This document shows, piece after piece, positions 3,749 to 43,931 of a stretch of DNA of 64,000 nucleotides (positions are counted from its first letter, which is position 1; each line of letters starts with the position of its first letter). This DNA is from Enterovibrio coralii (GTDB taxonomy: Bacteria; Pseudomonadota; Gammaproteobacteria; Enterobacterales; Vibrionaceae): contig NZ_LNTY01000006.1 in NCBI RefSeq assembly GCF_001559595.1, positions 62,001 to 126,000 on the forward strand, in the 5' to 3' direction. Below the pieces are notes generated by a model that was given only the letters and a program-made list of their open reading frames with translations, was not told the origin of the DNA and ran no database searches. The position numbers and the translations under genes are program-made.

Positions 3749-3765
3749 ACTGAGACAAACACTTC

Positions 3766-5499: not shown

Positions 5500-5544
5500 A
5501 CACTATCAATCAGGTATCACGCCAAGATGATGTGGAGGTGGCTC

Positions 5545-7356: not shown

Positions 7357-7381
7357 AGCATTTAGCGAGTAAGGTAGTACG

Positions 7382-8841
7382 ATGAAAAATGTGAATACAC
7401 CACTGATTGATACCCAAGTTACCGACGAAGCTTTGCAGTGGGCAATCATGCACGGTGTGGCAATTAAAAATCCTGACGGTACTGCGCGTCATTGTCCATT
7501 TAGCATTGCGCCGATGACGATGAAACGACGCGTGTACGAGCACCTGCTGAAAGTGACACCAATCCTGACCAAACTGATCAGTGCCGTTTCGGAAGATCAT
7601 GCATTCCTGCGCGCGTCTCTCAGCAATATGTCAAAAGCCGATCCCTTCTTTGGTCGCCTGCTTTGGATGCATGAGCAAATTCATGGCACTGAAGAGGCAC
7701 CAAAAGCGTCGGTTCGTCAGCCTTTGCTATTAATGCGCACAGACTACATGGATGATCGCCAGCAAGGCGCGAAAGTGATCGAGTTTAACGGCATCGCCGC
7801 GGGTATGGGACCGTTCGGTCAACGTGCTAATCAGCTGCATGATTTTATGCGCCGCCAATGGCCAAAAACGTATCAGCAGTGGATTGAGTCGCCTACGGCC
7901 GTACCTGCGGATAACCAATGCCTAGAGCAGCTGGCTAACGCGATTGCAACGTCGGGTCAAAAAGTCCGTGACGAATTTGGTGAGGAAGGGAAGCCGACCT
8001 TCCTGATGGTGGTGCAAAAGAACGAAGACAATGTCTACGACCAACATTTGCTGGAAGTCGCATTGCAAGCGCGTGGCATTCGTACCGTGCGTCGCACCTT
8101 CCATCAGCTGTCTACTCAGCTTTCGTCAGGTGATAACCAACGCCTGATGCTGGAGAATGTGGGCGCATTGGATGTGGTGTATCTGCGTGCGGGCTACCAG
8201 TTCTCTGACTACTTTGCGCCAGAGCTAATGGAGCCAAACTGCTGTGCGACGTTGAGCCAGATCCGTGTATTCATCGAACAGCACAATGTGGCGGTGAATG
8301 CGACTGTGAGTCAGCAATTGGCAACCAGCAAAACCATGCAAATGCTGCTGACCATGATGGAAACACAAGCATTGACGCAATGGGGGCTGACTAATGACGA
8401 AGCCGTGTTAGTTAATAGTGTGCTGGCGGATATGCTGCCAATCTCTCTCGAACGTATTGAGTGGTTTGAAACAGACGCAGTAAAACAAGATTGGGTACTG
8501 AAAAACCAAGGTGAGGGCGGTGGCCATTGTGTGTTTGGCGAAGATATCTCGGGCAAACTGCAATCACTAAAACCTGAAGACTATGATGCATGGGCACTGA
8601 TGCAGCGTTTGTATCCACATGAGCGTGAGCGTCCGACGGTAGCGGTACGCAATGGTGAACAGACACAAGTTGACGACTTGGTGAGCGAGATTGGTCTGTT
8701 TACTGCCTTCTTTAACGGCAAACCAGTGACGGATTTGGGCGGCTATGCAGCTACCTTGTTCGAAGCAAACCAGCCAAAGAAAACGAAGGTGGTATTCATA
8801 GCGGTAAAGGAATATTGGATTCCATTACGCTTATCGACTGA
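7382..8841 (+). pseudogene. Eukaryotic-type glutathione synthetase, 3' frameshift
   Basis: This enzyme joins glycine to gamma-glutamylcysteine, the second step of glutathione synthesis. It is the eukaryotic ATP-grasp type, unrelated in sequence to E. coli GshB. It matches human GSS along its length: residues near LMRTDYMDD and KVIEFNGIAAGMG, then NVYDQHLLEVALQARGI, VLKNQGEGGG and VSEIGLF. The glycine-rich C-terminal loop GGIHSGKGILDS is encoded in another frame after one missing base near 8781-8789 and ends at the TGA at 8839-8841. The restored length is about 486 aa, against 474 in human. As read, the frame instead runs through the terminator into the next gene, which makes a false fusion. 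It is the last gene of the gshA block. Confidence 0.85.
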
Positions 8842-8864
8842 TATACTGCCAAGGTTGAAACAAC

Positions 8865-8889
8865 AAAAGCCGCGGTTTTCGCGGCTTTT
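8865..8889 (+). terminator. Rho-independent terminator of the gshA block
   Basis: A perfect 10-bp stem, AAAAGCCGCG and CGCGGCTTTT, with a five-base loop, lies 24 bases after the restored synthetase stop. It sits inside the apparent fused reading frame, which shows that the fusion is an artefact. Confidence 0.85.
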
Positions 8890-8905
8890 ACTTTTGAGAA
8901 AGACG

Positions 8906-9442
8906 ATGACAATAGAAACCGTTTGGGGCGAATACCAGTCCAGCGTAAAAGCTTTTTTGCATGCCAAAGTGTCCAATCCTGATGATGTGGACGACTTGCT
9001 GCAAGACATCGTTTTAAAAACCTACCTGCATCTAGAAGAAGTACGAGATAACACCAAGGTGAAATCTTGGCTTTTCCAAGTGGCAAACAACGCCATCATT
9101 GATTTCTACCGTCAGAAGGGAAAGGGCAAAAACCTCACTCAAGACGACCTGTGGTTTGAAAGCGAAAAAGATGACGTACGTGAAGAGTTATCAGAATGTC
9201 TTTTGCCGTTTATCCAAGCTCTGCCACAAGACGATGCCGAAATGCTCACTGCCATTGAACTTCACGGTCAGTCCCAAAAAGAGTATGCCGAAAAACACGG
9301 CATCAATTACTCAACATTGAAGTCTCGCCTGCAAAAAAGCCGCACCAAGATTAATTCGTTGTTCAATGAGTGTTGTGAGTTGAAGCTCGATAAAAACGGC
9401 AGCGTCATTGACTACGAAGAACGCAAAGATTGCGGTTGTTGA
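8906..9442 (+). CDS. sigZ: ECF sigma factor, SigZ family
   Basis: This is a 178-aa ECF sigma factor. Region 2 (PDDVDDLLQDIVLKTYLHL, then VKSWLFQVANNAIIDFYRQ) and region 4 (LHGQSQKEYAEKHGINYST, LKSRLQKSRTKI) are both clear. The C-terminus carries a cysteine-rich tail (CCEL near the end and a final CGC) typical of SigZ-like proteins. The ATG at 8906 is taken as the start because it follows the terminator. It happens to be in frame with the preceding synthetase frame only because that gene is frameshifted. No anti-sigma gene is adjacent. The target genes are unknown; the Cys tail suggests a metal or redox input, which is inference. Confidence 0.8.
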   Translation: MTIETVWGEYQSSVKAFLHAKVSNPDDVDDLLQDIVLKTYLHLEEVRDNTKVKSWLFQVANNAIIDFYRQKGKGKNLTQDDLWFESEKDDVREELSECLLPFIQALPQDDAEMLTAIELHGQSQKEYAEKHGINYSTLKSRLQKSRTKINSLFNECCELKLDKNGSVIDYEERKDCGC

Positions 9443-9625
9443 ATACTTAATCATCGACCTGACTGATATAAAAGCAGTAAAATCAGCCGTCTACAAAGGT
9501 TGTCACTCTTTGTTGTCGCATTTCCCTCTGACTCTCCCGTCGTGTGCGAATCGAAGAGATAAACATTCATAATTTACAATACGTTGTACGCACCCAGTGA
9601 GGTGCGATTTTTGTGAGTTCTTACA

Positions 9626-10759
9626 TTGAAGCGTCTATCCATCATCCTATTTATGGCTGCGACTATGCTGTCCGGCTGTTCCATGCTTGAAATACAAATT
9701 GAGAGCCAAACTGTTCCTTTAACCAAACAGGAGCTAAATGCTCGCGTTATGACCCGCGAATATGCACAGCAGTTCTTTTCGCAAGTGGAACAGGCTGCGG
9801 ACAAAATGCATCAGTATTATGAACCGCGGGATCAGGTCAATCAGAGCAATGTATTGCTCTGGAAAATAAACGCCATTGAGAGGATGCAATCGGCCGCTTA
9901 TCAAGTGTCACCAATGGCTGGGCTAATTGACGTCTGGGTCTTTTCCTATCAATTGGATGATTTTTTCTCCGTGGGCGAGGGTAAGGAGCTGTTTGTAGGC
10001 TCTGAAGCAAAGGATGTGTCTAAACACTTAGCAAATGAAATGGACAGGGTCGCACAATCTATCTTGAGTGCGAGCAACTACCCTAAGGCAAAAGCGTTTG
10101 TTCAGAAGCATGCGGAGCAATATCCATTTAGGGATCTTAGTTTCAATCGAACGCCGGCATATCGTTTGTGGGTTGAGAGCAATGGTGGGAACGAGCAAGA
10201 CGCGGTGACAACGTTGGGCACAATGCCAGAAGCGATCGGCGATATGTCTGACAAGATGAGCCTGTTTTCTGAGCAGACGCCTAAAATCATGACGTGGAAA
10301 GCTCAGTTGCTGGCACTCAACAGCATGAATAGCATTGACCAAGTCAATCAAGCGGTTGATAGCTTTAAAGTTGTTTCAGATTCGATGAATGACTTTATCA
10401 GGAACAACCCAGAGTACATGCGACACCTCGCCGAGGAAATGGCGGTTAAGTTACAACCTCTGGTCGATAACATTGACCAAAAAACCGCTGATCATTTGCT
10501 GACGCTCAGCACTGAGCGAATGCTGTTAGAGCAGATGATTGCGCGTGAACGCGTTGAAGTCGCGAGCATTATTACCTCGGAACGAGAGGCTCTAGTAGAG
10601 GATGTAAATACACTCTCCAAAGAGATTGTTGACGTTGTCATGAACAACCTTATTGAGATGATCCGCAGCCTGATTCTCTATTTCGTTCTGTTTATTGTTG
10701 TTATTTTCTTTGCGCCGCTGGGTCTTGGATACATGTTAGGACGCCGCTCAGCGAAGTAG
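9626..10759 (+). CDS. Lipoprotein with C-terminal membrane helix, unknown function
   Basis: The 377-aa product has an N-terminal signal with lipobox LSGC (Cys near residue 18). A mostly helical body follows, then a strongly hydrophobic segment near residues 345-370 ending in RRSAK. The region before the helix (LEQMIARERVEVASI to IVDVVMNN) looks like a coiled coil. The protein could therefore be lipid-anchored at one end and span the inner membrane at the other. The likely start is the TTG at 9626, since no ATG lies upstream in frame; the ribosome binding site is poor. I do not recognise a named family. The neighbours give no clue. Confidence 0.6.
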   Translation: MKRLSIILFMAATMLSGCSMLEIQIESQTVPLTKQELNARVMTREYAQQFFSQVEQAADKMHQYYEPRDQVNQSNVLLWKINAIERMQSAAYQVSPMAGLIDVWVFSYQLDDFFSVGEGKELFVGSEAKDVSKHLANEMDRVAQSILSASNYPKAKAFVQKHAEQYPFRDLSFNRTPAYRLWVESNGGNEQDAVTTLGTMPEAIGDMSDKMSLFSEQTPKIMTWKAQLLALNSMNSIDQVNQAVDSFKVVSDSMNDFIRNNPEYMRHLAEEMAVKLQPLVDNIDQKTADHLLTLSTERMLLEQMIARERVEVASIITSEREALVEDVNTLSKEIVDVVMNNLIEMIRSLILYFVLFIVVIFFAPLGLGYMLGRRSAK

Positions 10760-28903: not shown

Positions 28904-29088
28904 GCTCCCCAAAATTGACCCAACCGCCAAAGCCGCTCAACCCTTGAGCAAACCGTTTTTGATCTGAAACAGTAAAACGCTAAAAACTGTTTAATCCTTC
29001 AATTATATGTTGAATTATTCAAAAATAATTTAATAATGAACCCCTGAAACATAAGCCGTACATTTACCCTTTGCCAACGAGATTTTTC

Positions 29089-30282
29089 ATGAGCAATTCA
29101 CTAGTACTTGTCCTTAACGCGGGCAGTTCCTCTCTTAAATTCGCATTGATGGATGCACAAACGGGCGAAGCCATTCTTTCTGGTCTTGGCGAGTGCTTCG
29201 GTCTTGAAGATGCGCGCATTAGTTGGAAACGCGATGGCGAGAAGCAAGAGCTGATGCTGGAAGAAGGTGGCAACCACCACGAGAAAGCAGTAGGCATCAT
29301 TGTTGAGCTGGTTGAAAGCATGAACGTTGGCGAGCAATTGGTTGCTATCGGTCACCGTGTTGTACACGGCGGCGAGAAATTTGCTGACGCAACCCTGTTG
29401 AACGACGACGTTATCGCAGAAATCGAAGCGTTGAGTGACTTGGCTCCTTTGCACAACCCAGCAAACGTAATGGGTATCCGTGCTGCTATGAACGCTTTCC
29501 CAAGTCTGCCTCAAGTTGCTGTATTCGACACTGCATTCCACCAAACCATGCCTCAGAAGGCGTTTACCGGTGCAATCTCTAGCGAGCTTTACACTGACTA
29601 CGGTATCCGTCGTTACGGCTTCCACGGTACTAGCCACTACTTCGTGACTCGTGAAGCAGCAAAACAGCTGAACAAGAACATCGACGAAGCAAACTTCATC
29701 TCTGTTCACCTAGGTAACGGTGCGTCTGTTTGTGCAGTAAGCAACGGTAAGTCTGTTGATACTTCTATGGGCTTCACGCCGCTGTCTGGCCTGATGATGG
29801 GCACACGCTGTGGTGACTTGGACCCAGGTATCATTGAATTCCTGCTGAAAAAAGGCTGGAGCCAAGAGCAAGTATTTGAAGCACTGAACAAGAAATCTGG
29901 TTTCTTGGGTGTTTCTGGCCTGACGTCAGATGCACGTGGCATTCTTGAAGCGATGGAAGCTGGTCATGAAGGCGCGAAACTGGCGTTTGAAGTGTTCACC
30001 TACCGTGTTGCTAAGTACATCGGTTCTTACCTGATCCCTCTGGATGGTCTGGATGCGATTATCTTCACTGGTGGTATCGGTGAAAACTCGCTGCCAATCC
30101 GTCGTCAAATCCTGAGCAACCTGAAACTGCTGGGCTTTGTTGAAGATGAAGCAGGCAATGAAGCAGCGCGCTTTGGTAACGGTGGCATCATTGCGAAATC
30201 ACAAATGATGGATGCAGTCGCTATCGTTGTACCGACTAACGAAGAGTTCGTTATCGCGTCACAAGCTGCAAGCTTTGCTTAA
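29089..30282 (+). CDS. ackA: Acetate kinase
   Basis: This 397-aa enzyme interconverts acetyl phosphate + ADP and acetate + ATP. Motifs are the N-terminal LVLNAGSSSLKF, GHRVVHGGE, FHGTSHYFVT, HLGNGAS and FTGGIGENS. The ATG at 29089 gives the standard start MSNS; a TTG six codons upstream is ignored. A pta gene usually follows ackA in vibrios but is absent here. Instead the terminator beyond the stop is cut (AGCCGCTGACGAAAGT, then foreign DNA), and diverged copies of this gene's tail recur at 37644 and, more weakly, near 57013. This marks the 3' end as an insertion site. AckA could use acetyl phosphate from Xsc. Confidence 0.96.
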   Translation: MSNSLVLVLNAGSSSLKFALMDAQTGEAILSGLGECFGLEDARISWKRDGEKQELMLEEGGNHHEKAVGIIVELVESMNVGEQLVAIGHRVVHGGEKFADATLLNDDVIAEIEALSDLAPLHNPANVMGIRAAMNAFPSLPQVAVFDTAFHQTMPQKAFTGAISSELYTDYGIRRYGFHGTSHYFVTREAAKQLNKNIDEANFISVHLGNGASVCAVSNGKSVDTSMGFTPLSGLMMGTRCGDLDPGIIEFLLKKGWSQEQVFEALNKKSGFLGVSGLTSDARGILEAMEAGHEGAKLAFEVFTYRVAKYIGSYLIPLDGLDAIIFTGGIGENSLPIRRQILSNLKLLGFVEDEAGNEAARFGNGGIIAKSQMMDAVAIVVPTNEEFVIASQAASFA

Positions 30283-30333
30283 TTAGCCCGTACTTAAGTA
30301 AGACGAGCAAATAGAAGAAGCCGCTGACGAAAG

Positions 30334-30870
30334 TGAAGTGACCCCGTAAAGTTGGACATTTCAGTTTAGCTGCTTTCAAGGCCTGATTTCGAAAACCCAT
30401 CGGAATCAGGCTTTTTAGTTTCGTCTTAACACGTTTGGTATTGTAGTACTCGATATACGCTTTGATTTGCGTTACCAAGTCATCAGCATCTTCAATGCGT
30501 CGGTTATGGTGCATATCTGTTTTAAGTAGTACGATGAAGTTTTAGGCAACAGCGTTGTCTAGGTAATTACTTTTTCTCGACATACTTTGTGTTAGTCCAT
30601 TGTCGATTGGCTCGGTGCCGATACTGCCAACCTTGGCCGCTGTGAATAATGGGCTTCGATTTCGGATTTAGGGTTGAGATGCCGCGTTCAAGCATACCGA
30701 TGAGCAGTGGTAGAACAGCGTGTTTCTCAACTATATAAGTAACTACGTCTCGCTTGAATAGGCTGATCATGAGAGGCAGATATGCCTTCTGCCCTTTGAC
30801 TCTAAACTCAGTGACATCCGTTTCCAGTGCGGATTTTTTCTCGGAAAAACAATATCTTCATTGCCAATTA
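30334..30870 (-). mobile_element. IS3-family insertion sequence remnant
   Basis: Pieces of one OrfB transposase are spread over different minus-strand frames. In 5'-3' order they are TDVTEFRVKGQKAYLP (about 30825-30777), an IIHSGQGWQYRHRA piece near 30640 and a C-terminal YNTKRVKTKLKSLIPMGFR near 30430. The second DDE Asp has become Gly in HSGQGWQY, and the N-terminal half and OrfA are missing. The element is therefore dead. Its right end, around TGACCCCGTAAAGTTGGACA (30339-30358), resembles IS3-family termini and abuts the broken ackA terminator. Confidence 0.75.
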
Positions 30871-30915: not shown

Positions 30916-31293
30916 CTAATTCTGAGCGAAGACACTGCAACCACTTGAATTTCCCCACTGTCCTCCATTAGTTACGGTACAAGTAGCATGGAGCAAGTTT
31001 TGCGGCGTAGCGCAGGGAGAAGCTAAATTTACAACCCTGTTGAGTTCGCTGTCGTCGCCAATGGTCATCAAAAGATATGCTCTTGCTAATTCCTGAACGC
31101 GTTGAGGTGAGATGCAGGTAGATTGTCCTGCATGTGCATCCAGACTCGGGATTTCAGGTGCCGGATTGGTTAGACAGCTTAGAGGGAAGTTTTCGACTGT
31201 ACACCGCGGGGCCAGACCAAAACCAATGCCTCCAGACACTCCAGATAATGTACACAGAAACAAAAGAGCAATCACCAAAGCCAAAGTTTTCAT
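30916..31293 (-). CDS. Small exported Cys-containing protein, last gene of motor-like operon
   Basis: This 125-aa protein has a signal peptide (residues 1-21, LALVIALLFLCTLSGVSGG). The mature part carries six cysteines (PRCTVE, LSCLTN, STCIS, SPCATP, ATCTV, SGCSVF), suggesting disulfides in the periplasm. AAAGGAAAAC precedes the ATG, 27 bases after the channel gene stop. I do not recognise a family. It is placed with the operon by spacing and strand. Confidence 0.6.
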   Translation of the reverse strand: MKTLALVIALLFLCTLSGVSGGIGFGLAPRCTVENFPLSCLTNPAPEIPSLDAHAGQSTCISPQRVQELARAYLLMTIGDDSELNRVVNLASPCATPQNLLHATCTVTNGGQWGNSSGCSVFAQN

Positions 31294-31320
31294 TGAGTTT
31301 TCCTTTCAGTTGACTACGAT

Positions 31321-32799
31321 TTACCACGGTAAACTGGGAAGGGTAGCTAACAGCTCTTTCCTAAATAACACAAAATAGCTGCCAATGATCAGCAGTATGA
31401 TTACCCCACCACCGATTGTCAGTAGCGCACGTAGCAATAGGTTGCCTCCTCGCCCTGCACTTAGTATCGGAGCAGGCTTAATGAAAGAAGCTAGGATTGT
31501 TTTGCGCTTTGTCTGTTCGAGAGTCGCAACACTGTCGGCAAGTGCTATGGCATACTCATAGCTGCGTTCCATTCGGCTAGACCAACTGCTGGAGACGGCT
31601 TGTAGAATGACTGACAAAAGCATCGACAAAATAACGCCTAACAAGGTTGTTCCAAAGGCTGTACCAATTCCGCCAAACATCTCAGCCTTGACCAGCACCT
31701 TTCCCACTGGATCTGCCACATCCAGATTCCGTGCTGCAAAGAGTGCATCTCCAATACCTAATATGGTGCCAGCGAAAGCTAGCTTTAGCATTACCTCGTT
31801 GGTGGTGTGCAGACTCTCCAAAGTGGATTCCGATTCTTGGCGCATAAAAGATAAATAATCCGCGAGACTGGTGCGTGCAGCATTTGAAAAAGCTAGACGG
31901 TCTGGCGGCTCTGTAGTCCCTAGCTTTTCGCTAGTACTTACTCTAGCTTCAGTCGCCAAAGCTCTATATATCAATCTGTCTTCTATCGCCCGCACTCGTG
32001 ATTCACGATAGTTTCTTAGCTCATTTTCGTCATAGTGGATCTCTGACTCACCAACTTTGCCTGTGCGTACCGCTTGCTCAGAAACCAATGTGGGTTTCGG
32101 AGCGACCCAACGCAGATAGCGCCCTGCAGCTTCAAGAATAGCTAGAAGGAAAATCGTTATTGTCAGAAACTGGATCGAGCCCACAAACAGCGTGGCCATC
32201 CGGTAACCACCGATGATATTTTTTTGCAAAATAATTGCTAAATGGGTCTCTATCTCGTCACTAACCCCGCACTGAGCATCAGTAAGTTTGCGGGCAGTCC
32301 CCGCACACAACTCAGCTTTCGATGAGGGCTTTATTTTGCTCTGCGGGACGAGTGCATGCCCCTCAATGGTTCGCATAACTGAATGTAACGAATGTTCAAC
32401 TGAAGGATTAGCGACTCCGGGTGGCAAGAAGTAATGCTTAGACAGGATTGAACTAAATTCCCGCTCTTTTTCTCCATCTTTTTGCACTCTGAAGCCAACT
32501 ACAGTCAATGAAGACCCTATAAGCGTACAAGCCGGGAATTCGGTAGTTCCATCAGAATTTGGTTGTGTTTCAACGCAAAATTCTAGTCTCGAACCAAAGG
32601 GGGCTAAAAGGGCATTTGCAGCTTTCTGTTTCTCGGCTAGTTCGACCAAATAGTCAGAGTTTATGCGTGTCAGATACACTGTCAGCTGATCGTGCAGTAA
32701 AAAAGCAACCATCATACAAATGATAAACTTCACTAACCTACGAAACAGCTTTTGGATACCGTCTAACGGCCCAAAGATGATATCAATAATTTTCGCCAT
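31321..32799 (-). CDS. MotA/TolQ/ExbB-like proton-channel protein
   Basis: The 492-aa inner-membrane protein has one helix near residues 22-37 and a large periplasmic loop (about 45-195) with cysteines at 75, 91, 165 and 177. Further helices lie at about 200-222, 337-356, 374-401 and 457-479. Residues 337-401 carry the MotA/TolQ/ExbB pattern: MLKLAFAGTILGIGDALF, then MFGGIGTAFGTTLLGVILS, with Gly/Thr placement like the pore helices of ExbB. The cytosolic segment 228-335 is charged and helical. By family it would form a pentameric ion channel that drives partner proteins with proton or sodium flow. It is much longer than ExbB (about 240 aa), and the periplasmic insert is unusual. It is probably coupled to the two single-pass proteins upstream in the operon. 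Confidence 0.75.
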   Translation of the reverse strand: MAKIIDIIFGPLDGIQKLFRRLVKFIICMMVAFLLHDQLTVYLTRINSDYLVELAEKQKAANALLAPFGSRLEFCVETQPNSDGTTEFPACTLIGSSLTVVGFRVQKDGEKEREFSSILSKHYFLPPGVANPSVEHSLHSVMRTIEGHALVPQSKIKPSSKAELCAGTARKLTDAQCGVSDEIETHLAIILQKNIIGGYRMATLFVGSIQFLTITIFLLAILEAAGRYLRWVAPKPTLVSEQAVRTGKVGESEIHYDENELRNYRESRVRAIEDRLIYRALATEARVSTSEKLGTTEPPDRLAFSNAARTSLADYLSFMRQESESTLESLHTTNEVMLKLAFAGTILGIGDALFAARNLDVADPVGKVLVKAEMFGGIGTAFGTTLLGVILSMLLSVILQAVSSSWSSRMERSYEYAIALADSVATLEQTKRKTILASFIKPAPILSAGRGGNLLLRALLTIGGGVIILLIIGSYFVLFRKELLATLPSLPW

Positions 32800-32814
32800 A
32801 TGATTTTCCTTGAT

Positions 32815-33812
32815 TCAGTCAAGGGCGATTTCAGCTCGAAAATGTAATTCGGGGCGGGGTGGTTCTTGGTTTAATGCCTGTGTGGCTAACCAATCGCGCA
32901 GCTCCGAGTTGCGCTCAGTAGTTTGACTAGGTGGTGGTTCTAGCCGGCTGAAGGCGGCAGCAAGCCAATGCAACAGAACTTGGACGGGTGTGGTAGCTGA
33001 CAGCTCTGGAAGTGGGTCTCGCTCATCTTTGGTTAAACTGAATGCTTCGGTAGGACTGGTAATCTCAGCAAGCCAGCCAGAAATGTAGGTCTTGTTAAAA
33101 GACCCCAACACCAATCCATTACCTGAGGGTGTGAGTACTCCACTTTCTTCGATAAGGCCTTGCGCAATTATGCCAATATTACCTTCCGCGATGACTAAAG
33201 GCTGGGAAGCCGACTTCAGGGCCTGATAAGTCCTTGTCATAGGCGCTGAACAATTTGATGTAAATACCAAGCCCGCTTCTTTTCCTCCACTTGGAGCCAA
33301 TAAGCTGAGGCATCCGTCAGTGCTTTTTACCGATAGTATCAATGTAGAGCCTATCCCCTCAGAGCTTACAAATCGGCCCTGAAGATTCTCTGCACCCACA
33401 GCTTTAGAAAGTGTACCGCTACCTCCAAACGCTGAAATTAATAACTTAGACATTCGATCAGTGAAAGCGTCAGCTACTGGATCATCTACACAGAGGCTGA
33501 CCGTCTCGTCGAGGTATTTACGGTACCCTTTCAGCTCACAGTCCCAACTTCCTAGCCAAGTTGGTGGACCTAAAGAGGGGGCTTTAATGTACCAAGTGTA
33601 ACCAGCCATAGTAAGACAGATACTTTGCGGGTGTTTACCGTTTGCAGCTCCGGCAAACCAAATTTCACGAACACCGTTGCTGTGGGTGCGTAAAAGTCGT
33701 TCTGGTAAATCACCTGTAAAGCACTGTGCCAATAAAAATGTGCCGACGTCGGAACGGACAGGGCACTCCCCAAAAAAGTTGCTATGAGTAAGAACGCGAA
33801 GATGCCTTTCAT
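32815..33812 (-). pseudogene. Exported protein of motor-like operon, frameshifted
   Basis: The ATG at 33812 overlaps the previous stop as ATGA and has AAGGAG upstream. It opens a clear signal peptide (FAFLLIATFLGSALSVPTSA). The frame then slips at an A-run on the plus strand near 33733-33737. One restored base links it to the long downstream frame that starts LAQCFTGDLPERLL, giving about 332 aa. The mature part has a domain with GYTWYIKAPS and WLGSWDCELKGY, several cysteines and no further membrane helix. No family is recognised. It lies between the two small membrane proteins and the channel gene. Confidence 0.6.
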
Positions 33813-34261
33813 TTGCATTCTCCTTCAGCTGAGCAAAGGAACTCTGTTTGGTTGTACAGAACTCTTATCGAAGAAGGCTCTAAATCCTCTGAACCTGGGT
33901 ATTCAACAATGAGGATCAGCGGTTCTCGGGGAGCGGTAGCAATGGGGACATTCAAAAAGAGTCCCCGTACAATACAATTTGAACCTTCTGCTACTGCTGT
34001 GACAGCGGCTTCCCCGCTTAAGCTGTGTTGATAGACTCCGTCATCGTCAAGAAAACTGAAGGCAATAGCAATATCATTCCTTTCACACGGAATACTTCCC
34101 CTTTCGCTGTCAAGTAAGGGGTAATTGAGTTCAAAATAAGAATCACTGGGTTCGACAAAGAGCTCTTTGGGCGAGGCCGCGTCGATAATAAGTATTGCAG
34201 CAAACGAGGCCGCAAATAAGTCCGTCGCAACAATGGTGAACCACTCGCCACGATTAGTCAC
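33809..34261 (-). CDS. Small single-pass ExbD/MotB-like protein 2
   Basis: This 150-aa protein is best started at the GTG at 34261, which overlaps the upstream TGA as GTGA and has GGAGAG six bases before it. One helix spans about residues 8-26 and begins IVATDLFAASFAAILII. The Asp at residue 14 sits at the membrane entry, as in the plug-and-stator partners ExbD, TolR and MotB. The remaining 120 residues would be periplasmic, with three cysteines. There is no OmpA-like peptidoglycan motif. Assignment as a channel partner rests on the Asp, the topology and the neighbouring MotA/ExbB-like gene. Confidence 0.6.
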   Translation of the reverse strand: MTNRGEWFTIVATDLFAASFAAILIIDAASPKELFVEPSDSYFELNYPLLDSERGSIPCERNDIAIAFSFLDDDGVYQHSLSGEAAVTAVAEGSNCIVRGLFLNVPIATAPREPLILIVEYPGSEDLEPSSIRVLYNQTEFLCSAEGECK

Positions 34262-35142
34262 GCTTCGCTCTCCGGTACAAAATTCAATTCTGCGTTTGGC
34301 GCCCATTCGGTACTTGCTTTATAACAAATCGCCTCACCGTCTTTATGCAGGCACAGCCTAGCCCGCAAAATCGCAGAATTACTTAATTGGATAGAATATA
34401 TAGGATATTGTTGCGTAATATCCTGATATGCATGAAAATATCTCGGGAGTGCCTTGTTGGAATTTTGTTCAATAGCAGATGTCGGCAATTGCGATATAAA
34501 ATTAAAATATCGAGTTGCAACGGCCAATCTACCTGACGCTATCCAGTCATAAACCTCTTTCGAGGTAATAAAAACAGAAACTGCGGCACCATGAGATAAA
34601 GTGATATTGCAGCGGTATAAATCAACCAAATTGTCAATTGTGACGTCATCTATTCTCTTAAACTGTGTAGTTCCCAAAGGGACAAAAACGGATTTTGGTA
34701 AATTTATATCTACACCATATAGCATTAATGCACTGCCTTTCCATGATAAATCTGATGTGCTGTCAGAGCCAAAATCCTGGTTAGCTATACGGCAGAGTGT
34801 GGCGAGGTCATCTCGCTGCCGTAGATGAAAATCAATCCAATTCACATCATTTATTATTTTTGTCTGACAAGGGGCCAATGATGGTAAAGTTAAGGCCAAT
34901 TCCTTGACGATGCTTTCTGGCGCACACACTGGGCGTTCAGCAATTGAACGGGGCAGCAAGTTAATATGTCTTTGGCCGGTGTCCGCCTCAAGCTCTAATT
35001 CTAATGTAGCAAACACCAGTTGCGTAGAAGCCACTGTGCTTTCCGTTTCTCTGGTTGTGGCAAGCCAAGTTATCATAAACCCGCCAAACAGTGCCGCTAT
35101 AAGATCGACTTGATAAATATTGTCGCTGCGTCTAACTTTCAA
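34258..35142 (-). CDS. Single-pass ExbD/MotB-like protein 1
   Basis: The 294-aa protein starts at a TTG (35142) overlapping the TGA of the upstream gene. A short basic N-terminus (KVRRSDN) precedes one helix, YQVDLIAALFGGFMITWLA, with an Asp at residue 13, the position expected for the ion-binding Asp of ExbD/MotB. The periplasmic part, about residues 30-294, has five cysteines and mixed alpha/beta predictions but no motif I can name. It ends in a four-base overlap with the next gene, which has the same N-terminal plan. The pair may form a heterodimeric shaft in the channel. Confidence 0.6.
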   Translation of the reverse strand: MKVRRSDNIYQVDLIAALFGGFMITWLATTRETESTVASTQLVFATLELELEADTGQRHINLLPRSIAERPVCAPESIVKELALTLPSLAPCQTKIINDVNWIDFHLRQRDDLATLCRIANQDFGSDSTSDLSWKGSALMLYGVDINLPKSVFVPLGTTQFKRIDDVTIDNLVDLYRCNITLSHGAAVSVFITSKEVYDWIASGRLAVATRYFNFISQLPTSAIEQNSNKALPRYFHAYQDITQQYPIYSIQLSNSAILRARLCLHKDGEAICYKASTEWAPNAELNFVPESEA

Positions 35143-36554
35143 CTGGCACCATCCAAGTCATTAACATTAGAGCAATGACCCTCTAGCTCAGAGATGCTTT
35201 GGGAGGCTCTCCCTGTGATTGCTTTTAGGTTCACATTCAAAAGCAACTTGTATTCCTCGGGTTGCAAGTTTTCGCTGATGACAGGCACAGGCAAATATCG
35301 ACCATCGGGCTGGTAGATAATAATTCCACCGATCATGTCACTGGCATCAGTTGCACCGCACAACGCAACAGCATATCCATTCTGACGTTTTGCCATGTTC
35401 GCAAAATGGTAAAGGATGTTGCTGTTGGTTCCTTGGTACCGATTTGATGCAAGCGAGAATCTTTTCGTGCTGTCTGTCTTATCCGTACAGTTTATCGTTT
35501 GAATGTTGCCCGAAATTACTGGCGTGCACTGCCAATTGCCTCCGGTACCTGTGATAGTATTCCCGTTTTCCATATTGCCATTAGCTTGACTATCGGCTTT
35601 ATGTCCTTTGGGCGAGCCACTTGGTCCCGGAGCTGTTCCCGTCCCTGGGACGTTCGAACCATCACCTCGCTCACCAGTACCGTCCGAGTTTCCATCCCCA
35701 TCCCCATCGCCGCCACCGTCCGAGAACAAGCTGGACAAAATGGCAATAAAGAACGCTCCACCGCATACGTAGGGATTGCCACCCGATGCCGAACAGACTG
35801 TGGCGACCATGTTCATCGCCATCGCTATGGCTGCGGCCCCATCTTCTTGGTTGCGCATTTGATCGTAGAGCTCGCCTAGTTGGCTACCACATTCTTTAAG
35901 CTCTGATCCAAGAGAGTTAGTTTGCTCAGCGATAACTTTTAAGTTTTTGGTCAATTGCTTGTTTCCCTCGCTGTCATCGCGCGCAATGCCTGAAGGGGTG
36001 AGGGGAATGTCGGAATTTGTGATGGCATCAGCTCTAAGCAATGTCTCGCGGCATTCTTCCCAAGCCTTGAGTGTGTGTTGTTTGCGCTGCTCTAGCTCAT
36101 TGAGAATTGCCTTGAATTCAGCCTGGTCACAAGTCAAGGCAGTTTGGCTAACATCTGGAAGTTGGCCGGATTTGATAGCATCAACAGCTGGAGAAAGTTC
36201 GACCTTTACCGATTTGGTACATTTCAACATCTTATCTTTCAGTTCCAATGGAACAGCGTTTTCAGGAAGATTTTCAATCGTTTGTATGACGCTATCCATC
36301 TTGCTGTTCAATATAACGGCCTGCTGGCCAGCGTCCTTCTTTCCTTGATCGCCTTCATATCGGCGGGCTGTTCGATCTGCCAGTGTTTGCGCCAATAAGG
36401 TGTCGAGTTTGGCATTTAGTTGGCTCAGTGCCTCATCCTGTGCGGTAAGTGTGCGGGCATTACGAGCGAGATCGTCTCGGCTGTTACCATCGGACTTGTA
36501 AAGGATATGCTTGCACAACATAGCATTGAAATTGATTTCAAAATTGATCGCATT
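35139..36554 (-). CDS. Coiled-coil, Cys-rich protein, first gene of motor-like operon
   Basis: This is 471 aa from the ATG at 36554, which has a strong GGGGG ribosome site. Residues about 25-75 and 140-230 are helical and probably coiled coil. A hydrophobic Ala/Met-rich stretch follows near 240-270 (IAMAMNMVATVCSAS). A Gly/Asp/Ser-rich linker about 55 long (GGGDGDGDGNSDGTG) leads to a C-terminal domain with paired cysteines. Many cysteines suggest export, yet no signal peptide is in frame. Another frame at 36526-36480 does encode a signal-like sequence (MLCCASISFTSPMVTA), so a base error at the T-run 36540-36544 and a second near 36480 could hide it. No family is recognised. Confidence 0.5.
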   Translation of the reverse strand, partial: NAINFEINFNAMLCKHILYKSDGNSRDDLARNARTLTAQDEALSQLNAKLDTLLAQTLADRTARRYEGDQGKKDAGQQAVILNSKMDSVIQTIENLPENAVPLELKDKMLKCTKSVKVELSPAVDAIKSGQLPDVSQTALTCDQAEFKAILNELEQRKQHTLKAWEECRETLLRADAITNSDIPLTPSGIARDDSEGNKQLTKNLKVIAEQTNSLGSELKECGSQLGELYDQMRNQEDGAAAIAMAMNMVATVCSASGGNPYVCGGAFFIAILSSLFSDGGGDGDGDGNSDGTGERGDGSNVPGTGTAPGPSGSPKGHKADSQANGNMENGNTITGTGGNWQCTPVISGNIQTINCTDKTDSTKRFSLASNRYQGTNSNILYHFANMAKRQNGYAVALCGATDASDMIGGIIIYQPDGRYLPVPVISENLQPEEYKLLLNVNLKAITGRASQSISELEGHCSNVNDLDGAS

Positions 36555-36660: not shown

Positions 36661-37200
36661 CTAATTTCCGTAATGAAATACTGTAGAGGGGACTTTAATT
36701 TCCATTGGGTCCGCTAAACTAGTAATCGTTGTCTGATCGAATTTATAAACTGGTTTATTGTTTATATTTACATAGTATGTTGGGTATCCATCATGTTCAC
36801 CTGCTAAAGTAACGGTTTCATTCTTTGTGTCCACGTAGAAACTAAACGCATAATCAATTGAAGGTCCAATACCAAGAGTGACAATAGTTGCAGTAGTTCC
36901 AACTGCTTCGAATTTGATACTGTCGACAGTTTGGTAATGTCCTACTGTTTTAAAGCTGTCATTTATAGAACCAAATTCACACCCAAGTATATTAGTAGTA
37001 CCAGTTGAATGTTGACTGTCATTGATGGTTCTAGTTTTTGTATTAACTACAATGGTTTGCGTGCTCTTTGTTCCCGCTTGACAATCTGGTTGTTCGATTG
37101 CGGTGCGAATTTCAATGCTCAGTCTCTTAGCAATGGCGTTGTTTGGATGAATTGTTAATAACAGAAATAATAACGTTATGTTCAATTTAATAATATCCAT
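36661..37200 (-). CDS. Exported protein with HDGYPTYY motif, unknown function
   Basis: The 179-aa product has a signal peptide (LNITLLFLLLTIHPNNAIA) when started at the ATG at 37200; a longer frame opens at 37251. The mature part is beta-rich and contains a GEHDGYPTYYVNI stretch that reminds me of the DUF3238-type 'SHDGFPAYE' motif, a tentative likeness only. It lies 106 bases upstream of the motor-like operon on the same strand and is more AT-rich than its neighbours, so it may be the operon's leader gene or separate cargo. Confidence 0.5.
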   Translation of the reverse strand: MDIIKLNITLLFLLLTIHPNNAIAKRLSIEIRTAIEQPDCQAGTKSTQTIVVNTKTRTINDSQHSTGTTNILGCEFGSINDSFKTVGHYQTVDSIKFEAVGTTATIVTLGIGPSIDYAFSFYVDTKNETVTLAGEHDGYPTYYVNINNKPVYKFDQTTITSLADPMEIKVPSTVFHYGN

Positions 37201-37643
37201 AATTTTAACTTCTTGGTCACTTAAGAATTCATGTGGCGTTAATGGTTTCAAATTTCTGAGTGTGCTTTAAATGATTGGTTTTAATTTTTTCACTCCTGTT
37301 TCAATTGTGACATTTTTGGAGTTGTGCGGTACTAATCAATTTGAAAACAACCTAACAATTTGTCTTGTGGTTTAGTGGAAATTTATGTTCTGTATCCAAC
37401 TATCCGTTTAATATCTGGTATTTATACTGCTGAAATTTATCTTAGCCAACTTCAAAGGCTGAGTTTGTACAGGTTTTGAGGCAAAAGAAGATTTGTGAAG
37501 GTGAGTCGCCAATTGTTTAGCTAAATATAAGATTTTTATGAAATCTCCAAAAAGTATTTATTGGAGTTTCGTATTGTTACTTTTTATATGAAGGTGTAAT
37601 GCCTAATTAAGGAAAAACTTATTTGCGTAGCGCGAATAGAAAC

Positions 37644-37697
37644 CCTACAAACGAAGAATTCGTTATCGCCTCACAAGCTGCTGAGTTTGCTAAGTAA
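37644..37697 (+). repeat. Diverged duplicate of the ackA 3' end (copy B)
   Basis: These bases read PTNEEFVIASQAAEFAK then stop. The ackA end at 30232-30282 reads PTNEEFVIASQAASFA then stop. The DNA agrees at most positions but differs at synonymous sites (for example GAAGAATTC against GAAGAGTTC), so it is not a recent copy. The ackA-type terminator follows, intact here but cut at ackA itself. This is the pattern left when an element inserts in a gene's 3' end and brings or displaces a tail. Confidence 0.8.
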
Positions 37698-37720
37698 GCG
37701 ACCAACGCTGAACTGAATTG

Positions 37721-37752
37721 AAAAAGCCGCTGATGAAAATCAGCGGCTTTTT
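37721..37752 (+). terminator. ackA-type terminator, intact copy
   Basis: AAAAAGCCGCTGA and TCAGCGGCTTTTT form a 13-bp perfect stem with loop TGAAAA, directly after the duplicated ackA tail. At ackA (30315-30333) only the left arm remains. Confidence 0.85.
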
Positions 37753-38009
37753 TGTGGGAGAAACATAGTTAAGAACAACAAAAAGCACCTTGTTGTCGAG
37801 ATGCCAAAGGGTTGGGGGCATGAGTGACAACGGTCTTTCATTACACTTGATTGCCACTAAACAATACGATTGGTTGATATTCAGGACTCAATGTCTCAAT
37901 TATTGGGAGTGAGTTGGCGAATGTCGTTGAAGCTTAATAAAATCAAGATAATTTGATGTTTCATTTCTCATGTTCCCAATAAAGAACAAACGACAAACGG
38001 AAGGGCAGA

Positions 38010-38777: not shown

Positions 38778-38810
38778 CGTGAGCTGATTTTCTTGGGAGT
38801 GGGTCGCCCA

Positions 38811-40423
38811 TTAGAGAGTGAACCCATTGTCTTCCAGAATCATGTCAGAAGCCTTTTCTGCAATCATGATGGTCGGTGCATTTGTGTTGCCAGAAGCGAT
38901 TTCTGGCATGATCGACGCATCGACGACGCGTAAATTCTCTACGCCATAAACTTGTAACCTTGCGTTTACCACTGCCATTTCATCAACGCCCATTTTGCAG
39001 GTGCTTGTTGGGTGATAAATGGTTTGGCTGAACTCCCTCGCTGCCGTTAACAACTCTTCGTCCGTCTGGAACTTTTCGCCGGGTACATATTCGCTCAATA
39101 CATGCTCAGAAAGCGGAGGTGTATTCGCAATCTTTCTTGCGACTTTGATGGCATTGATGATGACTGTTTGGTCGCGCTCGTCAGACAAATAGCAGGGTTG
39201 AATGGCCGGATGCTTTAAGGGATCTGTCGATGTGATTTTTACTGTCCCGCGACTGTAGGGACGAAGTTGACACACTGACGCAGTAAACGCAGAGAAGGGG
39301 TGTACGCCATCCCCCGGCTTGTCTGCACTCAGTGGTTGCATGTGAAACTGAATATCAGGGCGCGTTAAAGCGGGATCGGATTGTGTGAATATGGTGACTT
39401 GGCTTGCTGCCAGAGTCAGTGGGCCAGTGCGGTTAAAGAGGTATTGCAATGCCACCAGTGCTCGTTTCGTGAGGCTATTCAACTCGTCATTCAGCGTGCG
39501 TTCGCTGGTTTTAAAAACCAATCGGACTTGCAGATGATCCTGTAGATTTTCGCCAACGCCGGGTAAGTCATGTACCACTGGAATGTTGAGAGAGTTAAGC
39601 AGGGAGGCGGGGCCTATTCCTGAAAGCTGGAGCAACTGCGGCGACCCAATTGCACCTGCGCTCAAGATCACTTCTCGACTTGCCGCAATTCGCTTTTTTA
39701 TGCCGTCCTTTAACACTTCCACACCGACAGCGGTTTTGTTCTCAAACAGCACTTTCGATACATGATGCTTGGTTAAAATATCGAGATTTTTTCTTTGTTT
39801 AGCGGGGCGTAAGAAGGATTTTGCGGTACTCCAGCGAAAGCCTTTGTATGCGGTTTGTTGGAAGTAGCCGACACCTTCTTGAACCGCACCATTGCAATCC
39901 GGGTTATAGGGAATGCCAAGCTTGATTGCTGCGTTGATAAAATGATCCGCAATCGGGCGACGCAAACGCAAGTCGCTGACTTTTTGTGGACCATTTACGC
40001 CATGAAAATCATCTGAACCACGCTCCTGATCTTCGGATTTTTTGAAGTAGGGCAACACATCTTGATAAGACCAACCTTGGTTTCCAAGTGCCGCCCACTG
40101 GTCATAATCCTCCGCTTGCCCACGAACATACAATAAGCATTTAGTGCACTTGACCCTCCAAGCACTTTTCCCCTTGGCCATTGCAATTGGCGTGAATTAA
40201 TACCGGGATCAGGCTCAGTGACATAGCACCAATCCGTTTTTGGGTTATGCATGGTTTTGAAATACCCCACAGGGATATGCAACCAGGGATTGTTATCTTT
40301 ACCGCCTGCTTCTATCAAAAGCACGCGAATAGAAGGGTTTTTAGACAGACGATTGGCGAGTACACACCCCGCTGAACCAGCACCAACCACGATAAAATCG
40401 TAATGATTTGAAGATAATCCCAT
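38811..40423 (-). pseudogene. GMC-family FAD alcohol dehydrogenase (IseJ-like), frameshifted
   Basis: This is an FAD-dependent glucose-methanol-choline oxidoreductase. The N-terminus from 40423 has the dinucleotide fold YDFIVVGAGSAGCVLANRL and the GMC signature WPRGKVLGGSSALNA. After a missing base near 40135-40150, the frame resumes at LLYVRGQAEDYDQW. GMC signature 2 is GAIGSPQLLQLSGIGP, and the catalytic His region near the end is FSQTIYHPTSTCKMG. The restored length is about 537 aa, normal for the family. With an IclR regulator and a TRAP transporter beside it, and xsc in the same segment, it fits isethionate dehydrogenase (isethionate to sulfoacetaldehyde). Choline or another alcohol remains possible on sequence alone. 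Confidence 0.75.
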
Positions 40424-40790
40424 CTTTTCCCTTCTCCCTGTTCGCGAGGAAATGTCGTGTATTCAAGACGGCATCCTCTCAATGCAATGTGAAATCCAAA
40501 ATTCTCAAACATTAAAATATGAGACTAGTTATCTCGATTTTTATAGTCAAGGCTTGAATTTTGGTTTTTCTATGCCATAAATGGAATGTTCCGGTTCAAA
40601 ATTTAACCATTCGTTAACATGGGGTGATTGAAGCTTTGATAGATATTCGGAGCAAAAATTTTCCGCTGAACGTTGGATTGCTTGAATTTCAGAGCGTGAT
40701 GAATGAATCCAGAATGCTCTGTTCAAAAACGTCAAGGTGGGCATGCCAGCGTAAATGTTTGAGCGACAGCCAACACAAAGGAGTGCGAGC

Positions 40791-42015
40791 ATGAGCAAAA
40801 ATCGGGAGAAATTAACGCGGCGAGACTTTATGAAGGTGTCTGCCCATTTTGGGATGACCTCAACCCTCATCGCAGCAGGGACATTGGGAGCAGGTGCCAC
40901 CGTATCTTCGCTGGCAAGAGCAGCCGAAAGTACCCAAAAGGAACGTTATTCTACACAGCCGAAATTCCAGCTTAAATTTGGTGCTGCGGGGTTCAACGAG
41001 AAGAACCTCGATATCCAAAAATCAGCCCAACTTTTCTTTGCCAGAGATCTGGAAGAGCGAACAAACGGCGCAATTCGTGTTGAGTTTATTGGCAGCAACC
41101 AGATTTGCGGGCAAACCAACTGTGTGAAGAAAACACAGCAGGGCATCATCGACATTTATTCTGCCTCAACCCAAAATTCTGCGGGTGGTGCGCCGTATCT
41201 CAATGTGCTGGACTATGCTACATGTTCCCCTCCCGCGCGTCTCAATTTCACTTTTTCTACAGCAAGAAAAGTGAACCTCTCTTTAGGGAGCCATTACGTC
41301 AACGTCACAAAATGCAGTTCTTGTTTACCCATTGCGAGCTGCGAGGTATCCAGCTGGGGTTGAAATGGAAAGACAAGCCGCTTGTCACCTCCGTTGATCA
41401 GTTGGCGGGTACGAAGAACCGTGTCACGGGGACGCAATTAGGACGTATCGCCATGCAATTGATGAACCTCAATCCCGTCCCGATAGCATGGGAAGAAACC
41501 TTAGATGGATTGAAGCAAGGTTGATCGACGGCGCAGAAACTTGGATGGGGGCAGTGGCTTATGCAGGTATGGCACCTGTGGTGTCGCAGTGTGTCGACCT
41601 CAAGTTTTTCTGCGGTACAGAGCACACTGCAATGAGCTTACCTGTTTTCGATAAGTTGGGCTCTGATCTCCAAGACGATGTCATGGAATCCGCGTATGTC
41701 GCGCAGATATTCACACAAGGCATGAATGAAGCTGCACTGACGGACGTTATCGGCGCAACGAATCCACCTCGTGCGGGGACTATCTTCGCCGAAAACAACA
41801 CCCGCGTCGCTACCTTGTCGGATGCTGAACTGCGTAAAGCGGAAGAAATGTGTTCTCCAGAATTCAACCCAGAACCTTGGGAGCAGTGGCGTGAGCGTTT
41901 GAATAAATGGTCAGGTGGTTACGACACATACCAAGAAATCTACGATATTGCGCGAGAAATCCCGCGCGATACTTCCACTGTCAATGTGCCACCACAACGT
42001 TGGTGGACGAGCTAA
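40791..42015 (+). pseudogene. TRAP transporter substrate-binding protein (first system), two frameshifts
   Basis: This is a periplasmic DctP-type receptor. The ATG at 40791, after AAAGGAG, opens a twin-arginine signal (TRRDFMKVS). The body then runs in three frames, with breaks near 41218-41224 and 41520-41522 (GGTTTG read as GGTTG). Restored, it is about 408 aa with the family stretches EERTNGAIRVEFIGSNQI and NPVPIAWEETLDGLKQG. The Tat signal and length suggest the large DctP7-like subgroup. It begins a dctP-dctQ-dctM set divergent from the GMC gene. Isethionate is the likely substrate from context (IseK-like). Confidence 0.75.
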
Positions 42016-42105
42016 ATAGGGTCGTACAGTGCCTGCTTGTGGATGTGAAATTACATCCTCAAACAGGCCTGTTCGTGTCTTTACTGCAAAGCATGTGAGG
42101 TCAGG

Positions 42106-42633
42106 ATGAAACCGCTACAAACCTTGCTCAAATGGTTAGATGAAAACACGGAAAAGGTCATCATCTTGATCACTTATTCAAGTATGGCTGGAATTATATT
42201 TGTAGAGGTCGTTCGGCGGTTTCTGTTCAACCAACAAGTTCCATGGAGTACCACGGTACCGGTACTGCTTTTCTTATGGGTGACCTGGTTTGGCGCTTCA
42301 TACAATATCAAGAAACGCACACATCTTGCCTTAACCGAGATTCGTTCCCGGCTCTCGTACAAGTTTCAATTTTACTGTTTAGTGCTAGATGCGGTGCTTT
42401 GGATTGTCTTCGCCATCATCGTTATTTACCACGCAACGAATCAAACTTATATCGCCTACGACAACTTCGCCATTGTCGGCGGAACCGATGACGTCATGGA
42501 ATGGTGGTTTTATCTTGCTACGCCTCTCGCGTGGGGATTGATCGTGATCCGCGTACTGCAAAACTTGGCGCAAGACATAAAGCAATATCAGCGTAAAGAG
42601 CCCTTTGTGCTCCAAGCGTCATTACTGGATTAG
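42106..42633 (+). CDS. TRAP transporter small permease DctQ (first system)
   Basis: The 175-aa inner-membrane protein has four helices and the DctQ pattern (FVEVVRRFLFNQQVPWSTTV, LFLWVTWFGASYNIKKRTHL). It lies between the binding-protein gene and the large permease, nine bases before the latter, and forms the transport complex with it. It is IseL-like by context. Confidence 0.85.
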   Translation: MKPLQTLLKWLDENTEKVIILITYSSMAGIIFVEVVRRFLFNQQVPWSTTVPVLLFLWVTWFGASYNIKKRTHLALTEIRSRLSYKFQFYCLVLDAVLWIVFAIIVIYHATNQTYIAYDNFAIVGGTDDVMEWWFYLATPLAWGLIVIRVLQNLAQDIKQYQRKEPFVLQASLLD

Positions 42634-42642
42634 GAGCAGGAT

Positions 42643-43931
42643 ATGGAAGACGGCACACTGATCACGCTGATTTCTCTCGGAGTCACACTGCTATTTATCA
42701 TCGGCGTCCCTATTTTTCTTGTGATTGGTTTTTGGGTTGTCGGTTGTAGTCTCGTGATCGATTTTACCCTTGCCAATATTGGCGTGACCTTGTTTGAAGG
42801 TTTGAATTTCTTTGGCCTGTTGGCTTTGCCGCTGTTCATCATGACCGGTGATTTAATCAATGCAGCGGGTATCGCTAAGCGCATGTCTGACTTCGCATAT
42901 TCCATACTCGGATGGGTGAGAGGGGGCTTAGGAATGGCCACCATTGGGGCGTGCGGTATGTTCGCCGCCATATCAGGCTCCAATGCCGGCACAACAGCGA
43001 CCATCGGTTCAATCATGCAGCCTGAAATGGCAAAGAGTAATTATGATGAACGTTTTGCTGCGGCCACGGCGGCTGCAGGTGGCACAGTCGGAATCATCAT
43101 TCCACCGAGTATCATCTTCATTGTTTATGGCTTCTTGCTCGATCTTTCGATCAGCGATTTGTTCGTGGGTGGGATGCTGCCGGGTTTATTGATGGTGATT
43201 GCCATGCAGTTGGCGTGCTACATCGTTTGTAAGAAGAACGGATGGGGCAACTTAATCAAGTTCGAGCTAAGCGCATTTTTCAGACTGGTTTAAAAGCCTA
43301 TCTTGGCTTAATTGCCATCGGCATTGTGATATACGGTATCTATTCTGGCGCCTTTTCTCCGACGGAAGCTGCCGGTGTTACGGTGGGTTTTTGTTTGATT
43401 GCGGGCGTCCTGATCACGCGACAAATTAAGCTACGTGAGTTGCCGAACATCTTACTGCGTTCAGGACAAATCACGGGCATGCTGGCACCATTGATTGCCA
43501 TTTCAGTCGTGATGCAACAGTTGTTGTCTTTGTTGGGGGCAGGTGAAGTGGTGCGCGGATGGATGTCTGCTATTGGGGATCCAACATTTGTGTTGATTGC
43601 CTGCATGATGTTGGTGCTGTTGGCGGGAACCGTGTTAGAAAGCCTTCCAAACACCATCATTCTTGCGCCTATACTCGCGCCTATTGCATACAGCGTGGGG
43701 GTGGACCCGATCCATTTCGCTGTGATCTTTTTGGTCGGAGATGCCATTGGCTTTATCACGCCACCATATGGCTTGAATCTGTACGTTGCCAGTGGAATCA
43801 CAGGAATACCGTATTTCACCATTGTGAAATACGTAATGCCTTACCTGTTTGCACTGATGGTGGCATGGATGATCATCGCTTTCTGGCCGCCGCTGTCGAC
43901 CTATTTAGTACAGTTTTCAGCAGTGGGTTAG
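42643..43931 (+). pseudogene. TRAP transporter large permease DctM (first system), frameshifted
   Basis: This sodium-coupled transport subunit has about 12 helices. The first frame carries GLNFFGLLALPLFIMTGDLI and the invariant GAISGS-like AAISGSNAGTTATIGS, then TVGIIIPPSIIFIVYG. One base is missing between about 43240 and 43262. The second frame carries FSPTEAAGVTVGF, LAGTVLESLPNTIILAPIL and IGFITPPYGLNLYV. Together they give about 429 aa, the family norm. It is IseM-like by context. Confidence 0.85.

Follow-up and report, generated by a model that had tools for sequence, protein, structure and literature searches.

We analysed a stretch of 64,000 nucleotides from Enterovibrio coralii (contig NZ_LNTY01000006.1, positions 62,001 to 126,000 of the forward strand; referred to below as the window), which belongs to a 5.5-Mb genome assembled in 72 contigs, and focused on an operon of six minus-strand genes, designated F, E, D, C, B and A in reading order. 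This operon is best read as an orphan, rarely occurring variant within the motor class of TolQR, ExbBD and AglRQS, acting on the periplasm or the outer membrane. The operon is real and coherent, and combines a known motor class with unfamiliar partner proteins. On balance we lean towards the view that the six genes, which were probably acquired, encode an ion-driven motor of the same kind as TolQR, ExbBD and AglRQS, i.e. a force-transducer of the cell envelope. A bolder proposition, that they represent a new motor class in which a TolQ-like channel with a periplasmic domain, a 5:1:1 axle of D and E, and three disulfide-bonded exported proteins perform new work at the outer membrane or the cell surface, is one that we regard as doubtful. 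To our knowledge, few forms of the Tol/Exb/Mot class are understood beyond those of Tol, Ton, flagella, gliding and Zorya.

Organisation of the operon and its channel protein

The six genes span positions 36553 to 30916 (Table 1). Four-base overlaps join F to E (TTGA), E to D (GTGA) and D to C (ATGA), while C and B are separated by 15 bases and B and A by 27, so that the overlaps and gaps of less than 30 bases listed in a preliminary description of this DNA hold true. Judging by their sequence, these overlapping or abutting genes form a single tightly coupled operon. A Shine-Dalgarno-like sequence can be read from the printed sequence upstream of five of the six starts, E being the exception, and the most likely start of D replaces an ATG at position 34306. 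Codon usage favoured the proper frame over the other two frames of the same strand for F, E, C and B, and also for gene G, which lies upstream of the operon; the scores of all seven genes were lower than the mean of 18 window genes, which were also the training set of the score. The number of promoter-like sites (9 found versus 12.5 expected) was uninformative.

The channel component of the putative motor is the protein B. It matched the MotA/TolQ/ExbB channel family (PF01618) at or over the curated cut-off (22.9 bits, equal to the cut-off of 22.9, in a Pfam scan of the operon, and 25.3 bits, above the cut-off, in a search of the genome), which places B, by its sequence, as an outlying member of the MotA/ExbB family. 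Hydropathy analysis located helices at residues ~18-43, 204-229, 336-354, 381-399 and 454-484. The protein can accordingly be divided into an anchor helix (~18-43), a periplasmic domain (~44-200) with four Cys residues, a TolQ-like core (~195-437) and an extra C-terminal helix (~454-484), and it contains no Cys beyond residue 177. Positions invariant across eight relatives include K339, G344, T345, I346, G348, G377, G379, T380, A381, T384, T385 and G388.

An AlphaFold model of B, built on an alignment of eight distant relatives, reached pLDDT values of 77-83 in ten-residue blocks across residues 331-400. When this model was compared with solved structures using Foldseek, the first 35 places were taken by TolQ and ExbB chains alone (best E value of 1.7e-4, probability of 1.00), and stator (Pom/Mot) and ZorA chains appeared lower among the 50 matches listed, together with two unrelated helical proteins. 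Residues 195-430 of the model could be aligned by VIA-align with TolQ of A. baumannii (Z of 12.9, rmsd of 3.9, 204 residues aligned), although helical bundles can reach a Z of about 13; the channel assignment rests on the agreement of the Pfam match, the conserved motif and the top structural ranks. Compared with a 5:2 motor, the TolQ/ExbB/MotA fold of the channel subunit was found for the core of B only, in a low-confidence model. The protein therefore reads, in the model, as a TolQ/ExbB-type core of three helices, preceded by a membrane-anchored domain in the periplasm and followed by one more helix. The motor-like channel of 492 residues proposed in the preliminary description is borne out by the Pfam match and the structural comparison, while the large periplasmic “insert” ascribed to it has to be replaced by an N-terminal periplasmic domain and an additional C-terminal helix. 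PHROGs gave weak matches for both B and F (lowest E value of 0.013), which were put down to chance.

Putative partner proteins and a proposed mechanism

D and E each possess a single N-terminal hydrophobic helix which holds an Asp residue (FTIVATDLFAASFAAILII in D and VDLIAALFGGFMITWLATT in E), followed by a part with four and six Cys residues, respectively. Both proteins thus have the features of the single-pass partner of a 5:2 motor, such as MotB or TolR. In control proteins encoded in the window and at the loci of eight relatives, 2 of 34 distinct hydrophobic segments at the N terminus carried such an Asp, and one of these two was that of gene G. On the strength of their sequences, we propose that D and E are the axle subunits of the motor. 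They had previously been described as two single-pass proteins, as is indeed the case, and as ExbD-like, which is acceptable as regards topology and the helix Asp, without any detectable homology: at the limits applied, searches of Pfam, NCBIfam, PHROGs and PDB gave no family or sequence match to either protein. A single-sequence model of E (mean pLDDT of 33.5) was uninformative.

Two candidate relationships of these proteins were rejected. The MotB-like protein encoded beside the nearest short channels resembles D and E by eye; hhalign gave this kinship a probability of 0.1 and 0.2, and in hmmsearch with the filters off neither D nor E received a score, whereas values of 2.1 and 5.0 bits were attained by shuffled copies. 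PADLOC matches of KwaB, CARF and PbeC to D, E and F (E values of 0.011-0.04) were put down to chance. Elsewhere (L050:5253-9285), a channel protein is followed by a VWA-domain protein (Pfam), in which the helix VAAIDLFASAMGAF looks, by eye, similar to the helix of D; this pair sits behind an 800-amino-acid protein with a Cys-rich end.

The three remaining proteins, A, C and F, appear from their sequences to be exported, since their starts, inspected by eye, resemble signal peptides. Two proteins with clear signal peptides had been noticed before, though not the fact that the signal peptides of F and C are out of frame with the body of the protein (see below). The first half of F is rich in helix (Gly plus Pro 7%), and is followed by a short hydrophobic stretch, a Gly-rich linker and a Cys-containing C-terminal part. 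F was originally described as a coiled-coil Cys-rich protein; the Cys residues are present, while the coiled coil is weakly backed, as the 3.5-residue periodicity of residues 16-235 was equalled in 132 of 2000 shuffles, and that of the best of seven stretches (181-235) in 20 of 2000. The exported parts of all six proteins contain an even number of Cys residues (B 4, D 4, E 6, C 6, A 6 and F 10, leaving out Cys28 in the first helix of B, Cys14 in the signal peptide of A and Cys3 before the frame break of F), which fits disulfide-bonded periplasmic parts. A, C and F had no Pfam match above a cut-off, and searches of PDB sequences with B, A2, E, D, F and C produced no believable match.

According to PMC9389320, motors of the class consist of a pentameric wheel around two helices, and the ion is carried by the Asp of these helices. 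AglR with AglQ and AglS is described there as a single channel joined by two MotB-like proteins, the stoichiometry being unsettled. We propose that B would form a pentamer around an axle composed of the helices of D and E, probably one of each, and that the Asp residues of these helices would carry the ion. Ion flow would shift the axle relative to the ring of B, and the disulfide-held periplasmic parts of B, D and E might relay this motion to F, C and A, which may work in the periplasm, in the outer membrane or at the surface. F, with its helix-rich region and C-terminal domain, could play a TolA-like role. If this is true, an operon with two unlike axle candidates, and with a channel that has a periplasmic domain of its own, would make mixed (5:1:1) axles testable, a question which PMC9389320 leaves open for AglQ and AglS.

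Comparison with known motors and alternative explanations

The likeness of the operon to TolQR and ExbBD lies in the three-helix core of B, with its very long helices, and in single-pass partners with a helix Asp. It differs in the anchored periplasmic domain and extra C-terminal helix of B, and in the presence of two unlike partners with larger, Cys-containing parts. Scans of the other operon proteins with Pfam and NCBIfam revealed no match above the cut-off to TolA, TolB or Pal, which accompany TolQR, and no match to the TonB family was found in the operon proteins with Pfam. The AglRQS gliding motor of Myxococcus, likened here by description and not by sequence, resembles the operon in having one channel protein plus a pair of MotB-like proteins, both of which hold an Asp in the helix (PMC9389320); the operon likewise encodes one channel and two Asp-bearing single-pass proteins, and differs in A, C and F, which lack a Pfam match above the cut-off. 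Comparable by description are also the generic ion transporters (GIT), whose non-flagellar A subunits are extended at the N and C termini. According to Puente-Lelievre et al. 2025 (PMC12505986), non-flagellar channel proteins vary at their ends and some have very large periplasmic domains, so that the extensions of B alone are not new; its abstract and sections 8 and 14 make no mention of two B subunits combined with three exported partners. Of the energised envelope machine of the preliminary description, the channel (Pfam and structural comparison) and the operon stand, the partners are assigned by topology and Asp, and the link with defence was not upheld.

Several observations weigh against an envelope motor. 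The model of B is weak (mean pLDDT of 50.8, with 260 of 492 residues below 50), the unrelated helical chains of CorA and ClyA score a Z of 11.1-11.2 against it, and neither phmmer with B nor a profile of A2 found a solved channel by sequence. D and E match no ExbD, MotB or TolR family, the periodicity of F is weak, and the proper frame was not the best by codon usage for D and A. A second occurrence of the operon was not found in the searched samples and collections, which means that joint conservation of the six genes is not demonstrable. Finally, F and C are frame-broken as assembled.

These breaks are central to the alternative that the operon is what is left of a mobile island, no longer functional and in decay, which we consider unlikely. 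It is in keeping with the adjoining remnant of an IS3 transposase and with the lack of relatives. In both F and C, the body is read in another frame than the signal peptide, in the pattern expected of one missing base in each. However, a comparison of a neighbouring 5.1-kb region (window positions 38806-43931, mostly open frames) with the relative locus L041 revealed four one-base losses and no gain, and at three of the four the window was also short against the relative locus L042; moreover, a motB-like gene elsewhere in the genome appears, on inspection, to be split. Because of these base losses and the split gene, the breaks in F and C look like assembly errors, and they may be such, with true decay as the alternative. 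The assembly seems to drop bases, and split genes in this region need to be read with caution. In favour of decay, and as a further point against our interpretation, ackA shows no one-base loss against three relatives, which indicates that the assumed assembly error is not uniform. On the other hand, B, D, E and A are open, and three of these four have a Shine-Dalgarno-like sequence.

It is also conceivable, with a somewhat smaller probability, that the operon encodes an export or surface-display motor, similar in logic to GldLM of the type IX system, of which F, C and A are substrates rather than parts. Three of the six proteins do have signal-peptide starts and Cys residues, and a relative (G011) carries at the same site exported-looking Cys proteins and a 2318-amino-acid protein, recognised by eye; against this, no match to an outer-membrane channel family was found in the operon with Pfam.

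Even less probable is an energiser of outer-membrane import resembling the TonB2/TtpC system. The genome contains a TonB2-type operon encoding a channel-family protein of 448 amino acids (L052:553-1899), which we take to be TtpC, a name that fits the adjoining ExbB-, ExbD- and TonB-like frames. With its ExbB-type domain placed behind a large, signal-peptide-led exported N-terminal region, it has the closest known architecture to B met in this study, but the two proteins show no significant similarity (BLASTP, just 22.7 bits, E value of 0.023). The TonB2 system comprises six proteins, including TtpC, with its own ExbB, ExbD and TonB (PMC6957404). Homologues of TonB, ExbD and TtpC were not found together in the operon, which has no TonB, ExbD or receptor family match in Pfam.

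The lowest probability is given to Zorya-like defence, in which a motor senses phage and releases an effector. In Zorya, ZorA has a long cytosolic tail, ZorB has an OmpA-like peptidoglycan-binding domain, and the partners are ZorC/ZorD or ZorE. The channel core is shared: six PADLOC models of ZorA matched B weakly (E values from 9e-5 to 0.049, ZorA2 being the best) in the common channel region only, and ZorA structures appeared in the lower Foldseek rows and, at a Z of 10.1-12.5, in VIA-align; but D and E have no OmpA-like match, none of the seven proteins scanned with PADLOC and Pfam matches ZorC/ZorD, ZorE, a nuclease or a helicase, and B, instead of a long cytosolic tail, stops shortly past the hydrophobic helix 454-484. 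The absence of ZorC/D-like partners and of an OmpA-like domain had been noted before, and still applies to the proteins scanned. The defence role then tentatively deduced from the insertion site received no support, as ten neighbouring window proteins belong to ordinary Pfam families, with no convincing PADLOC match: the matches (best E value of 1.5e-6) concerned a response regulator and IclR regulators, and are accounted for by their Pfam domains. With no clear defence genes among these ten neighbours, the idea is unsupported.

Rarity, insertion site and neighbouring genes

The operon, whose interpretation as an envelope motor we prefer, is apparently very rare. All counts given here include the window's own genome, the genome draws are overlapping samples, and the scans of genome and viral contigs rely on short peptide motifs, which distant relatives can escape. 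B was found in its own genome only, both among 41 genomes and among 247 genomes of the family; nine of 369 genomes of the class were positive (its own and eight with short, generic-looking channels), as were two of 394 genomes of the order (its own and G1062, with one short channel). A motif scan of genome contigs gave 57 stretches, none of them confirmed, and a second scan gave 322 stretches and nine loci, all representing another operon with a short channel; no B was found in viral contigs, plasmids or phages. The nearest channels are short proteins of other operons. E was limited to its own genome among 398 of the phylum, and C among 257 of the order; F was found in two of 239 genomes, the second being a 58-residue match in the Gly-rich part, interrupted by a stop. 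Plasmids and viral contigs contained no E, F or C, and phages no E or F. D was not found in viral contigs, nor A in plasmids; these two are the least-searched genes, and the window's own genome, or very close ones, may be missing from the collections. When the whole island was compared as DNA with plasmids, the IS3 remnant alone was matched, among the matches listed. The earlier statement that the operon is not of a known type is so far supported by the genomes, plasmids, phages and viral contigs searched; as the literature was queried by the names of known systems, its absence in print is not demonstrable. The absence of B from the 246 other family genomes drawn and the poor fit of codon usage to the host suggest, on sequence grounds, that the cluster was probably acquired by horizontal transfer.

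The other operon (nine of nine loci, L012-L020, e.g. L012:8607-11839) is conserved in uncultured gammaproteobacterial or proteobacterial genomes, and encodes a MotA/ExbB-like channel of ~245 amino acids, a single-pass protein of ~200 and a membrane protein of ~172. In the single-pass protein, SDPF.DLLFN.LLGFTFLF is invariant in all eight sequences aligned (L016 was left out). Genes resembling those for an L,D-transpeptidase (8 of 9 loci) and a DUF302 protein (6 of 9) were recognised by eye, with Pfam applied to L012 only. It looks like another motor, tied to cell-wall work.

Table 1. Genes of the operon and features of its surroundings (window positions unless a locus is named)
Feature	Coordinates	Strand	Description
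Gene F	35139..36553	-	signal peptide from ATG 36553; 460-aa open frame 35139-36521; one frame break between
Gene E	34258..35142	-	294 aa; TTG start inside TTGA overlap
Gene D	33809..34261	-	150 aa; most likely GTG start (34261) inside GTGA overlap
Gene C	32815..33812	-	signal peptide from ATG 33812 (ATGA overlap); body 32815-33732, 305 aa, in other frame; one break
Gene B	31321..32799	-	492-aa MotA/TolQ/ExbB-family channel
Gene A	30916..31293	-	125 aa; 6 Cys downstream of a signal peptide recognised by eye
Gene G	36661..37251	-	196 aa; N-terminal hydrophobic segment; AT-rich; 107 bases upstream of F
Left ackA 3'-end copy with terminator-like sequence	30232..30332	+	left edge of probably acquired segment; ackA 29071-30282
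Right ackA 3'-end copy with terminator	37644..37756	+	right edge; 91% identical to ackA end of relative G002
IS3-family transposase remnant	30251-30605		beside island edge
Second ackA-end copies, L041	1455-1526 and 9828-9936		relative locus
Second ackA-end copies, L042	1340-1480 and 11043-11128		relative locus, reverse complement

The segment containing the operon is flanked on one side by ackA and on the other by a second copy of the 3' end of this gene, terminator included. Among the ackA loci of eight relatives, two (L041 and L042) also hold a second copy of this end within the fetched stretch, and in both, other cargo precedes the same IclR and GMC genes. With unlike cargo flanked by end copies in three genomes, the 3' end of ackA is, as far as these sequences indicate, an insertion hotspot. 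No integrase was noticed by eye at the ackA sites, and no search aimed at integrases was made.

The cargo was named by eye from the open frames listed for six of the eight loci (L044 and L046 were left out), with no family search behind the names. It comprises sugar-uptake genes with a porin (L041), NRPS genes (L039 and L043), phenylacetate-type genes (L040) and, in L045, regulators, transporters and type VI secretion-like genes, whose components lie downstream of ackA in the relative G009 (L045:12894-17120). The cargo of the six relatives, which was not scanned for defence genes, looks metabolic, regulatory, secretory or surface-related. L042 (reverse complement, 1494-10754) encodes three related exported-looking Cys proteins of 223-228 amino acids besides the 2318-amino-acid protein.

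Gene G, with a GC content of 0.352 as opposed to 0.42-0.49 in the remaining genes, is probably separate from the operon. Its relatives were detected on a Sinorhizobium plasmid (36%, E value of 4e-19), where the gene is clustered with a gene of the DotA/TraY family, and on a Yoonia plasmid (27%, E value of 7e-7).

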